The position numbers and the translations under genes are program-made. This document shows positions 9,097 through 14,065 of a stretch of 64,000 nt of DNA, one piece after another. Source of the DNA: Haloarcula rubra (GTDB lineage: Archaea; Halobacteriota; Halobacteria; Halobacteriales; Haloarculaceae). Every line of letters begins with the position of its first letter. Within the stretch, counting starts at the first letter, position 1. The notes under the pieces were generated by a model. The model was not told the DNA's origin. It did not search any database and was given only the letters and a program-made list of their open reading frames with translations. The DNA lies in NCBI RefSeq assembly GCF_019599465.1, contig NZ_RKLR01000001.1, forward strand, positions 62,001 to 126,000, given 5' to 3'.

Positions 9097-10497
9097 TCAG
9101 GTCGCGGGGTCGACGCGGGTTCGGAGCAGGGCGATAGCGCCCACCACGCCGAGAACGGCGATGCCCGCCGCCTGCGGCGCGGTGACCGCGACGCCGACGG
9201 CGCCGCCGAGGCCGGAGACGAGCGTGAACGCCAGAAACAGCGGCAGGACGACGGCGACGGCGTAGTACCACGGCAGGCCAGCGGCCCGGGCGACCGGGCC
9301 AGCGCCCTTCTCGTACTCGTCGAGCGCCGCCCGCCCGAGGACCCAACCATCGAACAGCAGGAACCCGAGCAGGCCGGCGGTGAGAACGATGTTAGCGACG
9401 GTGTTCGCCAGCAATGCGAACAGCGACGGCGACAGCGCGGTGGCGCTCCCCGTGAGGAGGAACAGTCCGCCGACGCCGGCGGTCGCTCGCGAGCGCGTGA
9501 CGGCGTGCTCGTCGACGAGGTACGAGACGAGCACCTCGAAGATGCTGATGGCCGAGGACAGCGCCGCCAGCAGGACGACGCCGAAGAAGACGACGCCGAC
9601 GACGCGACTGTACGGCAGGTCGGCGAAGGCGCCGGCGAGGCTGACGAACAGCGCGCCCGGCCCCCCTGCGCCCGGCGAGACGCCCAGCGAGAACAGGAGC
9701 GGGAAGATGACGAGGCCGGCGAGGACGCCGATGCCGGTGTTCAGTCCGGCGATGATGGTGCCGTCGGCGGCCAGCGAGCGGTCCTCGTCGACGTAGGAGG
9801 CGTAGGTGAGCATCGCGCCAGCCCCGACAGAGAGGGTGAAGAGCGCCTGCCCCGCCGCGGCGACGAGGACGTCGACGAAGTTCGCGCGGAGGTAGCCAAC
9901 GTCCAGCGAGAGGTAGAACTCGTAGCCGGCGGCGCTCCCCGGCAGGGTCGCGGCCCACGCCGCGAGCGCGCCGAACAGGACGACGATGCCCGGCACCATC
10001 ACCGTCGTCGCCACCTCGATGCCACGGTCGACGCCCGCGTAGACGACGGCCACCGTCGCCAGCAGGAAGAGGGCGTGAAAGCCCGCCGCGCCGACGCCGT
10101 AGTCGATGGCGGCGAAGTACTGCTGGGGCGCGCCGAAGTACGCGCCGGTCGCGCTGGCGAGCGTGTAGCGCAGGATCCACCCGCCGACCACCGAGTAAAA
10201 CGAGAGGACGACGACGGAGGCGAGCAGGGCCACGCCCCCGAGGGCACGCCATCGCCGTCCGGCCAGCGCGCCGAAGGCTCCGACCGGGTTCCGGCGACTC
10301 CGCCGCCCGATGACCATCTCGCCGAGCAGTCCGGGGACGCCGACGAGGACGATGACGACGAGGTACAACAGCAGGAACGCCGCCCCGCCGTTGGTCGCGG
10401 TCAACCACGGGAACCGCCAGATGTTCCCGAGACCGACGGCGCTACCGACGGCGGCGAGGACGAACCCGAGTCGGGTGCGCCACGTGGCTCGCGTCAT
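9097..10497 (-). CDS. Sodium-dependent transporter of the NSS (SNF) family, copy 1
   Basis: Polytopic protein of 466 residues with the NSS hallmark in the first helix, RLGFVLAAVGSAVGLGNIWR, where GSAVGLGNIWRFP forms the unwound sodium/substrate site. About eleven to twelve helices are visible. NSS proteins import amino acids or related solutes with sodium; the substrate is not predictable here. It is followed on the same strand by a short gap (54 bp) from a paralogue with the same signature, so the pair probably arose by duplication. Confidence 0.9.
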   Translation of the reverse strand: MTRATWRTRLGFVLAAVGSAVGLGNIWRFPWLTATNGGAAFLLLYLVVIVLVGVPGLLGEMVIGRRSRRNPVGAFGALAGRRWRALGGVALLASVVVLSFYSVVGGWILRYTLASATGAYFGAPQQYFAAIDYGVGAAGFHALFLLATVAVVYAGVDRGIEVATTVMVPGIVVLFGALAAWAATLPGSAAGYEFYLSLDVGYLRANFVDVLVAAAGQALFTLSVGAGAMLTYASYVDEDRSLAADGTIIAGLNTGIGVLAGLVIFPLLFSLGVSPGAGGPGALFVSLAGAFADLPYSRVVGVVFFGVVLLAALSSAISIFEVLVSYLVDEHAVTRSRATAGVGGLFLLTGSATALSPSLFALLANTVANIVLTAGLLGFLLFDGWVLGRAALDEYEKGAGPVARAAGLPWYYAVAVVLPLFLAFTLVSGLGGAVGVAVTAPQAAGIAVLGVVGAIALLRTRVDPAT

Positions 10498-10551: not shown

Positions 10552-11895
10552 TCAGAACACCTGGAAGAAGTCGGCGTTCTCGACGAGGAACATCTCGTTG
10601 ATGCCGAGGCCGAGCGTGGCGAGGATAGCGACGACGACGACCAACCGGAGCGTCCAGAGCCACACTGGCCCGAGAGGGCCGAGACCCTCGGCGCCCTGCC
10701 GGAGTTCGGCGACGGCGTCGCGACCGACGACCCACCCGACGAAGACGACCAGCGCGAGCACCGAGACCGGCAGGAACACCTGATAGGCGAACCGGTCGAA
10801 CCACGTCAGCCACGCGGTGTCCCACGCCGACGGGAGGCCGAGCAGGAACAGGCCAACCCCGACGACGGACGCGAGGACGGGGCGTGAGACTCCGAAGTTG
10901 TCGTTCGCGTAGGCGACGGTCACCTCCAGCAGACTGATGGCCGAGGACAGCGCCGCGATGAGGACGACACCGAAGAAGACGACGCCGAACACGCGGCCGA
11001 ACGGCACGGACCCGAACCCGGCGGCGGTCGCGACGAACAGCGCGCCCGCCCCGCCGCTCACGGAGTTCACGTCCGCGCCGATGGTGAGCAGGATGGGGAA
11101 GACGACGAGGCCGGCGAGGATGCCGACCAGCGTGTTCGTCACGACGACGGTGCCGCCGTCTAAGACGAGGTTGTCGTCGCTCCCGACGTACGAGGAGTAG
11201 GTCACCATGATGGCCATCCCCAGCGAGAGCGTGAAGAAGGCCTGTCCCACGGCGAAGGGGATGATGCTCCCGGCGTTGGCGACCATCGTGCCGACGTCCG
11301 GGGAGAGGAAGAAGGCGTACCCCTCGGCGGCGCCGGGCAGGGTCGCCACCCACGCGGCGAGTGCGACCATCAGCACGACGATGCTGGGGACCATCACCTT
11401 CGTCGCTCGCTCGATGCCGTCCTCGATACCCAGCGCGACGATGCCGACGACGATGGCGAGGAAGGCGGCCTGTGCGAGAACCGCGCCCGGCCCGGACGAG
11501 ACGGCCGCGAAGTAGCCGCCGGGGTCGGCGAAGTACGCGCCGGTGAAACTCCCGACGACGTAGCGGATGACCCACCCGCCGACGACGTTGTAGTACGACA
11601 GAATCCAGAACCCGGTGAAGACGGCGAGGCCGCCGACGACGCGCCACTGTCTGTGGCCCAGTTCGGCGAACGCGTCGACGGCGTTGACGTTGGTCCGCCG
11701 GCCGACGACGAACTCCGCGAGCATCGCCGGGAACCCGACGACCACGACGGCCGCCAGATAGAAGACGACGAAGGCCGCCCCGCCGTTGGTCGCGGTCTTG
11801 AACGGGAACTGCCAGAGGTTCCCGAGACCGACTGCACTCCCGATGGCCGCGAGGATGAACCCGACTCGCGTGGCCCACGTCTCTCGTTCGCTCAT
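10552..11895 (-). CDS. Sodium-dependent transporter of the NSS (SNF) family, copy 2
   Basis: Paralogue of the next gene on the minus strand (447 residues). It begins MSERETWATRVGFILAAIGS and contains GSAVGLGNLWQFPF, the NSS sodium-binding signature; copy 1 has Ile-Trp-Arg where this has Leu-Trp-Gln. A GGTTAACC box (11922-11929) is 27-34 bases before the ATG, so this is the first gene of a likely two-gene transcript. Divergence along the whole length suggests the two carriers differ in substrate. Confidence 0.9.
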   Translation of the reverse strand: MSERETWATRVGFILAAIGSAVGLGNLWQFPFKTATNGGAAFVVFYLAAVVVVGFPAMLAEFVVGRRTNVNAVDAFAELGHRQWRVVGGLAVFTGFWILSYYNVVGGWVIRYVVGSFTGAYFADPGGYFAAVSSGPGAVLAQAAFLAIVVGIVALGIEDGIERATKVMVPSIVVLMVALAAWVATLPGAAEGYAFFLSPDVGTMVANAGSIIPFAVGQAFFTLSLGMAIMVTYSSYVGSDDNLVLDGGTVVVTNTLVGILAGLVVFPILLTIGADVNSVSGGAGALFVATAAGFGSVPFGRVFGVVFFGVVLIAALSSAISLLEVTVAYANDNFGVSRPVLASVVGVGLFLLGLPSAWDTAWLTWFDRFAYQVFLPVSVLALVVFVGWVVGRDAVAELRQGAEGLGPLGPVWLWTLRLVVVVAILATLGLGINEMFLVENADFFQVF

Positions 11896-12237
11896 GTCGA
11901 CGCGCCCTATCCCGTTGCTCCGGTTAACCGCTGTGATTCGCTCCCGATATCACCGGGTGCGTCTCCGGCGTCGCTCTCCCGTCGCCCATAGAGCGCTATA
12001 TACCGATATTACCAACGTACTAGTGGCCCGACCCGAGAGATAGACCTGTCCACACTCGCCGCCAGTAGACCCCGTCGACCCTACCCCATCGTCGTGGTGT
12101 CCCGTCGTCTCTCGTCTCCCGCCAGTGTGGACAGGCAATCGTGCGACGCGGTGGCGACTCTCCCCCGCCGCCGTCGTCCACTCTTTCGTCGTCGCCCGAC
12201 ACGACCACGATACTCGCCAGCGACGCCGCCTCCGTTC
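11896..12237. other. Intergenic region upstream of the NSS pair and downstream of the SDR gene
   Basis: No convincing coding region. It contains the NSS promoter at its left end and an AT-richer patch near 11996-12022. At its right end (about 12194-12240) is a degenerate extra copy of part of the 62-bp repeat described next. Open frames here are short, arginine-rich and look like shadows. Confidence 0.5.
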
Positions 12238-12383
12238 GGTCTACGCCTCCCCGTAGACCGGGACGACTATGACACTGCTAATCGGCGCCGCCTTCGCTCG
12301 GTCTACGCCTCCCCGTAGACCGGGACGACCTCGACACTGCTAATCGGCGCCGCCTTCGCTCGGTCTACGCCTCCCCGTAGACC
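12238..12383. repeat. 62-bp tandem repeat with a hairpin, spanning the SDR stop codon
   Basis: The segment GGTCTACGCCTCCCCGTAGA plus CC occurs at 12238-12259, 12300-12321 and 12362-12383. Each copy is a perfect 8-bp stem (GGTCTACG/CGTAGACC) with loop CCTCCC. The full 62-bp units 12241-12302 and 12303-12364 differ at only three adjacent bases (TAT against CTC at 12269-12271 and 12331-12333). The third copy keeps only the hairpin, then enters the SDR coding sequence. On the minus strand each unit reads as the SDR tail VVPVYGEA followed by TAG. Termination or a relic of repeated 3'-end duplication are both possible. Confidence 0.85.
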
Positions 12384-13075
12384 GGCACGGCGGCGCCACT
12401 CGTGACCGACGCCGCGTCGGAACACAGGAACAACATCGTGGCGGCGATGTCGGCCGGGTCGACCCACTCGTCGAAGTCCGAGTCCGGCATCATCTCGCGG
12501 TTCATCGGGGTGTCGATGACGCTCGGCATGACGCTGTTCGCCCTGACGGTCCCGAGGTTCTCCTCGGCGATGGTCTCGGTCAGCAGCCGAATCCCGGCCT
12601 TCGTCGCGCGGTAGAGGCCGTCTCCCTCGCCGCCTTCGAGCGACGACCGGGCGGAGACCGAGACGATTGCTCCCTCTGTCTCCTGTAGGTGGGGCAGAGC
12701 GTGTTTCGAGGCGAGGAACATGGTCTTCAGGTTGACGTCGAACAGGAAGTCGAACGTGTCGACCTCGGTCTCGTGTATCGGGTCGCCGCCGCGCCACGTG
12801 CCCGCGATGTTCAACAGGTAGTCGAGGCGACCGTGTTCGTCGACGACGCTCTTGACGACCGACGCGACGTCGTCCTCGTCGGTGAAGTCGCCCCGATGGA
12901 AGTGGATGCGGTCGGGGTCCGACAACTGGAAGTCGTCGCTGTCGGGTTCGACCACGTCGGCGCCACAGACCGTCGCGTCCGCTTCGAGGAACGCGTTCGC
13001 GACGGAACTCCCGAGTGCGCCGCCGACGCCGGTGACCAGTGCGACCTCCCCGTCGAAGTCGAAGGTGACGGACAT
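12365..13075 (-). CDS. SDR-family oxidoreductase
   Basis: Short-chain dehydrogenase/reductase of 236 residues. It has the Rossmann motif VTGVGGALGSSVANAF near the N terminus, NIAGTW (variant of NNAG), a Ser in VSVSARSS, and YRATKAG carrying the catalytic Tyr and Lys (YxxxK). ATG 13075 is chosen over 13096 because a TTTTACC box lies about 30 bases upstream. The C-terminal tail TSGAAVPVYGEA is the usual haloarchaeal SDR ending, and its final codons form the first hairpin of the 62-bp repeat array. Substrate unknown. Confidence 0.88.
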   Translation of the reverse strand: MSVTFDFDGEVALVTGVGGALGSSVANAFLEADATVCGADVVEPDSDDFQLSDPDRIHFHRGDFTDEDDVASVVKSVVDEHGRLDYLLNIAGTWRGGDPIHETEVDTFDFLFDVNLKTMFLASKHALPHLQETEGAIVSVSARSSLEGGEGDGLYRATKAGIRLLTETIAEENLGTVRANSVMPSVIDTPMNREMMPDSDFDEWVDPADIAATMLFLCSDAASVTSGAAVPVYGEA

Positions 13076-13108: not shown

Positions 13109-14065
13109 TCAGGGCGTGACGACCAGTTTCCCGAGGAAACTCTCGGAGACGACGTCGGTCTGTGCGTCGTCGACCTCGCCGAGGTGGTAGGTCTCGGCGA
13201 CGTCGGCCGTCAGGTGGCCGTCTTCGAGCAGGTTCGCCAGACGGCCGAGTACCGCGCCGAAGTCGGGCGTGTTGAACATCGAGACGTGGTGGACCGACAC
13301 GTCCTTCGCGCGACACTGCGGGACGCTCTCGAAGGTCGCGTCCGGGTCCGAGTTGCCGATGGCGGCGATGCGGGCGCTCTGTGCGGCGACGTCGACGTCG
13401 AACGAGAGGTAGTCGTCGAGGCGGTGGTCCAGAATCACGTCGGGCCGACCGGCCGCCACGACGGCGTCTTCGAGGTCGTCCCGGCGGTAGTCCAGTACGT
13501 CGTCGGCGCCCAGTTCCCGCAGGCGGTCGTGGTACTCCGGCGAGGCCGTCGTCGTGACCCGCGCCCCCGTGGCGGCGGCCAACTGGACGGCCACGTGGCC
13601 GACGCCGCCGCTCCCGCCGTGAATCAGGGCTCGCTCGCCGGGTTCGAGCGAGCAGGCGTCGACGAGCGTCTGCCACGCGGTGACGCCGACGAGTGCGATG
13701 GCCGCGCCCGTCTCGAAGTCGACGCTCTCGGGGAGGTGCGCGAGGTGTGACTCGGGGACGACGGCGTACTCCGCGCAGGTCCCCTGCAACCAGTTCCCCA
13801 GTCCCGTCGCGAACACCCGGTCGCCCTCGGCGTAGCCCTCGACGTCGGCCCCGACCTCGGCGACCGTCCCGGCACAGTCAGAGCCCGGAATCCACGGCAG
13901 TTCGCCGGGGGCGTACCCGCCCTCGCGGAAGTAGGTGTCGACGGGGTTGACCGCGGCGGCGTCCACCGCGACCAGTACCTCGTCGGCGTCGGGTTCCGGC
14001 CGGGGAATCTCCTCGACTGTGAGTACATCTGGACCGCCGTGCTCGTGGAATCTGACAGCGCGCAT
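13109..14065 (-). CDS. NADPH:quinone reductase-like MDR oxidoreductase
   Basis: Medium-chain dehydrogenase/reductase of 318 residues without the structural or catalytic zinc cysteines, as in quinone oxidoreductases. The N-terminal GroES-like domain begins MRAVRFHEHGGPDVL, followed by VNPVDTYFREG. The nucleotide-binding motif is ALIHGGSGGVGHVAVQLA near residue 145. It is on the same strand as the SDR gene and 33 bp upstream of it, so the two oxidoreductases may share a transcript, although the SDR has its own TATA-like box. Confidence 0.87.
   Translation of the reverse strand: MRAVRFHEHGGPDVLTVEEIPRPEPDADEVLVAVDAAAVNPVDTYFREGGYAPGELPWIPGSDCAGTVAEVGADVEGYAEGDRVFATGLGNWLQGTCAEYAVVPESHLAHLPESVDFETGAAIALVGVTAWQTLVDACSLEPGERALIHGGSGGVGHVAVQLAAATGARVTTTASPEYHDRLRELGADDVLDYRRDDLEDAVVAAGRPDVILDHRLDDYLSFDVDVAAQSARIAAIGNSDPDATFESVPQCRAKDVSVHHVSMFNTPDFGAVLGRLANLLEDGHLTADVAETYHLGEVDDAQTDVVSESFLGKLVVTP

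Follow-up and report, generated by a model that had tools for sequence, protein, structure and literature searches.

A stop-codon-overlapping minisatellite with a well-conserved hairpin in each unit at the end of an SDR gene of Haloarcula rubra

Known repeats and hairpins at gene ends

MIRUs are found at many dispersed loci. The array described here, which lies across the stop codon of an SDR gene in Haloarcula rubra, is unlike them in that its unit is a copy of the end of the adjacent gene and is confined to one locus. On the other hand it resembles the mycobacterial MIRU-VNTR of the rnc-fpg1 intergenic repeats in being a lineage-specific intergenic expansion within a gene cluster, without counterpart in the outgroups (PMC2734929). 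In Yersinia pestis, stop codons are overlapped by 10 of 88 VNTRs (PMC3689786). These are similar to the SDR array in having head-to-tail copies which contain the stop codon, with a copy number that changes while the protein is unaltered. Unlike the Y. pestis VNTRs, the SDR unit contains a perfect hairpin that is conserved across non-coding copies and across species although drift has altered the remainder of the unit, and the variation of the SDR array is known between species so far. The kind of element is already known, as stop-codon-overlapping VNTRs, and the hairpin in each unit is what is unusual.

Hairpins at gene ends have also been described in haloarchaea. In Haloferax volcanii hairpins lie upstream of 503 mapped 3' ends, and one hairpin tested there terminated transcription, though with lower efficiency than a T stretch did (PMC7237163). 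The SDR hairpin is like those ends in that a stem is found at or just past the gene end and a T-tract is not always required. The H. volcanii ends were mapped from transcripts and the SDR array from sequence, and a description of tandem multiplication was not found in the part of that report consulted.

The array and its repeat unit

The window, by which is meant the whole stretch of 64,000 nucleotides that was analysed, contains the SDR gene (PF13561/PF00106; Pfam, ORF and orthologue evidence) on the minus strand at 12365-13075 with a probable ATG at 13075. The minus strand at the end of the gene reads ...GTG CCG GTC TAC GGG GAG GCG TAG ACCG..., where GTC to TAG are the last codons. A 24-nt hairpin, CGGTCTACGGGGAGGCGTAGACCG, is present in three identical copies spaced by 62 and 62 bp, and on the minus strand it has the form CGGTCTACG-GGGAGG-CGTAGACCG, a perfect 9-bp stem with a 6-nt loop. 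The initial annotation had reported three exact copies at 62-bp spacing with a stem of 8 bp; copies and spacing stand, and the stem is longer by one pair. Repeat and hairpin searches and folding place the coding copy at 12361-12384, where it covers the closing codons of the SDR gene with their TAG stop, as had been proposed. The two non-coding copies lie beyond it at 12299-12322 and 12237-12260 and were identified by repeat search and copy comparison. The spacer of unit 1 (12323-12360) is a diverged copy of the SDR tail 5' of the hairpin and differs from the SDR gene at 12 of 34 aligned positions. The spacer of unit 2 (12261-12298) departs from it at three adjacent bases, TAT (12267-12269) against CTC (12329-12331), which is the sole difference between the two units and, read on the minus strand in the frame of the SDR tail, gives ATA/Ile against GAG/Glu, just as first annotated. 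A suspected degenerate fourth copy also proved real. It occupies 12196-12236 on the minus strand like the others and consists of the spacer part only, without an intact hairpin after it. Its closest counterpart is the H. pellucida unit, with 34 of 41 positions matching, whereas only 29 of 41 match unit 1 of the window itself, so an older unit must have preceded the two recent ones.

Tandem Repeats Finder (TRF) reported a single array here (12201-12389, period 62, 3.0 copies, score 292), the next best score in the window being 81. A hairpin pattern search of the 4.67-Mb genome gave one locus, and a 301-bp query from the locus matched its own genome only at the array. In a 464-kb sample of the genome, on which the genome-wide hairpin controls rest, there were 61 perfect stems of at least 9 bp, and the array hairpin was the only recurring sequence among them, so the array is not a product of chance. 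A separate array of 67 bp x 2.2 was noticed in the same genome at a predicted gene end (G000 contig C11, ~341774-341923; 15774-15923 of L146).

Each 38-nt spacer is a diverged copy of the stretch of coding sequence immediately 5' of the hairpin. Given this homology to the SDR tail, the unit comprises the final ~55 nt of the gene and about eight bases beyond the stop codon. The same homology bears on whether the hairpins are the footprint of a site-specific mobile element, either a tyrosine-recombinase attachment core with 9-bp arms around a 6-bp spacer, or else REP-like units that a Y1 transposase had mobilised. The hairpin geometry does resemble a recombinase core site, and tails that restore the 3' end of a gene are common in integrating elements. 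However, plain tandem duplication is enough to explain spacers derived from the SDR tail, and the hairpin is not dispersed in the genome. No match to an integrase (PF00589) and no Y1 transposase was found on the 859-kb contig (C11), and neither here nor in the relatives is there an integrated element at the site. A tyrosine-recombinase attachment site was rejected on these grounds, and a dispersed palindrome of the REP/BIME type is excluded by the single locus in 4.67 Mb. The mobile-element reading is largely refuted and we consider it very improbable.

Translated in the tail frame, the SDR gene ends in DAASVTSGAAVPVYGEA and unit 1 in AKAAPISSVEVVPVYGEA, each followed by a stop. One possibility raised at first was that of spare C-terminal ends; as a reservoir, these could recombine into the SDR gene and vary its protein. 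The spares do read ...VPVYGEA-stop in the tail frame, and the two differ by one residue. Against this, neither 62 (the period in the window) nor 61 is divisible by three, the interiors of the spares drift freely and are unlike every SDR tail, and the interior of a spare was seen in none of the SDRs examined. The tails of the SDR proteins are moreover uniform with or without arrays, the orthologues ending in (V/I)PVYGE(A/V/S/T) in both cases. A reservoir of spare ends is hardly credible. Part of the palindrome follows from the code itself, since the codons GTC TAC GGN GAR GCG TAG always yield CTACG...CGTAG. In the array species the palindrome is completed by the TAG stop and the following ACC; relatives mostly end in GCC TGA.

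Array-bearing relatives and divergence of the copies

SDR orthologues were collected from GTDB genomes and gave 181 distinct loci. The collections hold one genome per species, so copy number is compared between species. Four hairpins, 61, 62 and 62 bp apart, are present in H. pellucida (L005 = G016), and G013 has three with a period of 57 bp. G022 has two 127-bp units, which include the SDR tail together with a second hairpin, and H. rara (L004 = G017) and G021 have one diverged unit further downstream of the SDR gene. The array is absent in G002, G010 and G011 of the same Haloarcula subclade and in the remaining Haloarcula species that were examined. Copy number across species is thus 3 in the window and 4, 3, 2 or none elsewhere. 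Single, non-repeated SDR ends in related genomes had been put forward, together with a transcript that runs through all hairpins, as a sign of a neutral duplication. Some close relatives are indeed single-ended; others carry arrays with other copy numbers. The SDR gene is directly followed by the symporter gene in the array-bearing relatives, and there is no element between the copies in any relative. A tree built from SDR and the genes beside it places the array species among one group of close species, and a single origin of the array was not rejected (tree test, p-AU 0.17). A relaxed hairpin pattern searched in 146 genomes of the family gave eight matches within the genus, all at the SDR locus and fully complementary. 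The seven matches outside the genus have arms that are not complementary and were set aside as chance. The sister species form a clean natural series of 0, 2, 3 and 4 units with three periods, in which one can study the seeding of tandem duplications by hairpins and the means by which identity between non-coding copies and a coding copy is maintained.

The spacers and the hairpins of these species have diverged to very different extents. When the SDR copy is compared with its own spares, spacer differences are found at 12-13 of 34 positions in the window, 9-10 of 34 in H. pellucida and 7 of 29 in G013, whereas the SDR copy and its own non-coding hairpins show 0/24 differences in each of these three species (type A). 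Spacer divergence of ~24-38% therefore stands beside identical non-coding hairpins. Non-coding units compared between the window and H. pellucida repeat the contrast, with 9-11 of 34 spacer positions and 0 of 24 hairpin positions different. For the pairs tested, which are not independent, Fisher p was 0.0006-0.05. In G013 the one loop change, from G to A, is shared by all three copies, the coding copy included, which is the outcome expected from homogenisation. From the sequences, identical hairpins beside drifting spacers are what copy exchange anchored on a selected coding copy would give.

The array is a genuine, lineage-limited minisatellite that overlaps a stop codon and whose units each contain a hairpin, an unusual feature that is well conserved. 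Our preferred account of it, to which we give a probability of about 0.6, is that the repeat changes its length by slippage or unequal exchange and that the hairpins are homogenised against the coding copy. A first tandem duplication would have occurred once, in an ancestor of the Haloarcula subclade, helped by the near-palindrome in the terminal codons. Repeated expansion and contraction would have followed, by replication slippage or by unequal exchange between identical hairpins. Selection on the protein end (VPVYGEA-stop) would hold the coding copy intact, and exchange with it would maintain the identity of the non-coding hairpins even as the spacers drift. The 3' UTR of the operon would gain extra stable hairpins, possibly without consequence. 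The account is supported by an array that is statistically real and restricted to a single locus, by species that differ in copy number and period, and by near-identical neighbouring units. Expansion by slipped strands had been among the possibilities raised at the outset, and the differences between sister species and the likeness of neighbouring units support it, with unequal exchange as the other route. Two observations tell against this account. Homogenisation limited to 24 bp, beside spacers 24-38% diverged, requires frequent short exchanges. In addition, the non-coding hairpins of H. rara, G021 and G022 (type B) differ from the SDR copy and yet pair fully, so homogenisation with the coding copy is insufficient as the only explanation.

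The hairpin as a possible RNA element and the SDR end as a possible site of recurrent repeats

The type-B hairpins bring in the main rival to the minisatellite account, in which the hairpin is selected as RNA because it terminates or protects the SDR mRNA, by hairpin-type termination or by blocking a 3' exonuclease, and the extra copies give added strength. In H. rara and G022 the type-B hairpin is CGGTCGCCG-N6-CGGCGACCG, and in G021 it is CGGTCGCCG-N6-CGGTGACTG, each with 9/9 pairs. Relative to type A two pairs are changed on both sides, and in G021 two become G-U on the sense strand. All nine pairs thus persist in both types, with two compensatory changes and two G-U pairs between them, and the covariation score was reached by 0 of 500 shuffles, slid versions coming nowhere near it. 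The homology of the two types rests on similarity of the flanks: they are called homologous because the H. rara flank is identical to the G013 unit at 19 of 22 positions. The double changes are perhaps one evolutionary transition, so that independent events are few, and correction of a quasi-palindrome by template switching yields the same paired changes. The predicted fold of the hairpin has -16.2 kcal/mol (z -5.1), the 221-nt region has z -4.8, and the SDR gene is the last one ahead of a 470-bp gap. Stems of at least 8 bp lie near the stop in 16 of 181 SDR orthologues against 18 of 741 control stops, a count that includes the related array species. Three members of the subclade (G002, G010 and G011) and most of the genus do without such an array. 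Selection of the hairpin as RNA is on balance possible but less likely than the minisatellite account.

Serial terminators had been among the possibilities named in the initial annotation, and the one feature of them that sequence can show, a T-tract, does not support them. In the array species no T-run of at least four lies within 500 nt of the SDR stop, and a scan of the region for bacterial-type terminators gave no match. The absence of a T-tract agrees with an end formed by a hairpin, but G002, G010 and G011 also have no such T-run, so its absence does not mark out the array species. No Rfam family scored above its gathering score, matches being at chance level. Hairpin-only termination may nevertheless act at the SDR end, by analogy with the mapped Haloferax volcanii ends, some of which are preceded by hairpins (PMC7237163). 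If the hairpins do act on the mRNA end, the locus would be a simple test case for 3'-end formation without a T-tract in haloarchaea. As a separate observation, the first ~250 nt past the SDR stop of H. rara and G021 (L089/L090) contain a run of hairpins with co-varying stems. In the first of them the loop GACCGCAGGGA is constant and the stem varies in a compensatory manner, CGAGGGTCC/GGACCCTCG against CGAGGTGCT/AGCACCTCG. A dispersed family of hairpins with the GACCGCAGGGA loop was considered for this group and rejected in the 464-kb sample of the window's genome.

Unrelated arrays cross the stop of SDR orthologues in three other haloarchaeal lineages (L059 3700-3832, L061 3693-3771 and L030 3705-3742). 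These arrays of other sequence belong to Halosimplex aquaticum (18 bp, palindromic), Halorarius litoreus (56 bp, including a hairpin predicted to be stable) and a Haloferacaceae MAG (25 bp). Arrays across the SDR stop number 7 in 181 distinct orthologues against 4 in 680 control stops (p=0.0025), four of the seven being in one subclade, and counted by lineage, with the Haloarcula group as one, 4 in 181 against 4 in 680 (p=0.065). Because of that subclade, the idea of the SDR stop as a hotspot for arrays is suggestive only. A wider proposal would make the hairpin a functional, T-tract-free 3'-end RNA element that was tandemly amplified with its pairing kept by compensatory changes, and the SDR end a recurrent haloarchaeal site for arrays of stop codon plus hairpin. 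We regard this proposal as rather unlikely.

The neighbourhood was also considered. Upstream of the SDR gene, on the same minus strand, is a zinc-type alcohol dehydrogenase/quinone oxidoreductase gene (13109-14065; ORF, Pfam), and the two likely share one operon with SDR as the last gene. The next gene downstream, also on the minus strand, encodes a member of the sodium:neurotransmitter symporter family (PF00209; 10552-11895; ORF, Pfam). Three or four copies of a perfect 9-6-9 dyad precede this gene and could form an operator array for a transcription factor that controls the symporter, and the symmetrical base changes of type B likewise preserve the dyad. However, the core of the half-site shifts from TA to GC, the spacing varies (62, 61, 57 and 127) and so keeps no fixed helical phase, and the hairpins lie 340-490 bp from the symporter start codon. 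The hairpin sequence has no other occurrence in the genome, and outgroup species have the symporter gene without the array. Judged from sequence, an operator array is improbable.

Other features of the neighbourhood were seen in passing. Two genes of the symporter family stand in tandem in the window, at 9097-10497 and 10552-11895. An inverted repeat, CTGTCCACACT ... AGTGTGGACAG, at 12045-12135 spans ~86 nt and is conserved inside (ACACCAYGACRATG). It is a single copy in the genome, lies between the SDR and symporter genes in 6 of 9 species of the subclade, and is possibly a structured RNA or a regulatory site upstream of the symporter promoter. In H. amylovorans (L006) an element of ~85 bp is found within this inverted repeat, ~110-200 nt past the SDR stop, and with its long terminal inverted repeats ATACGGACTGCTGTAG...CTACAGCAGTCCGTAT it looks like a MITE.
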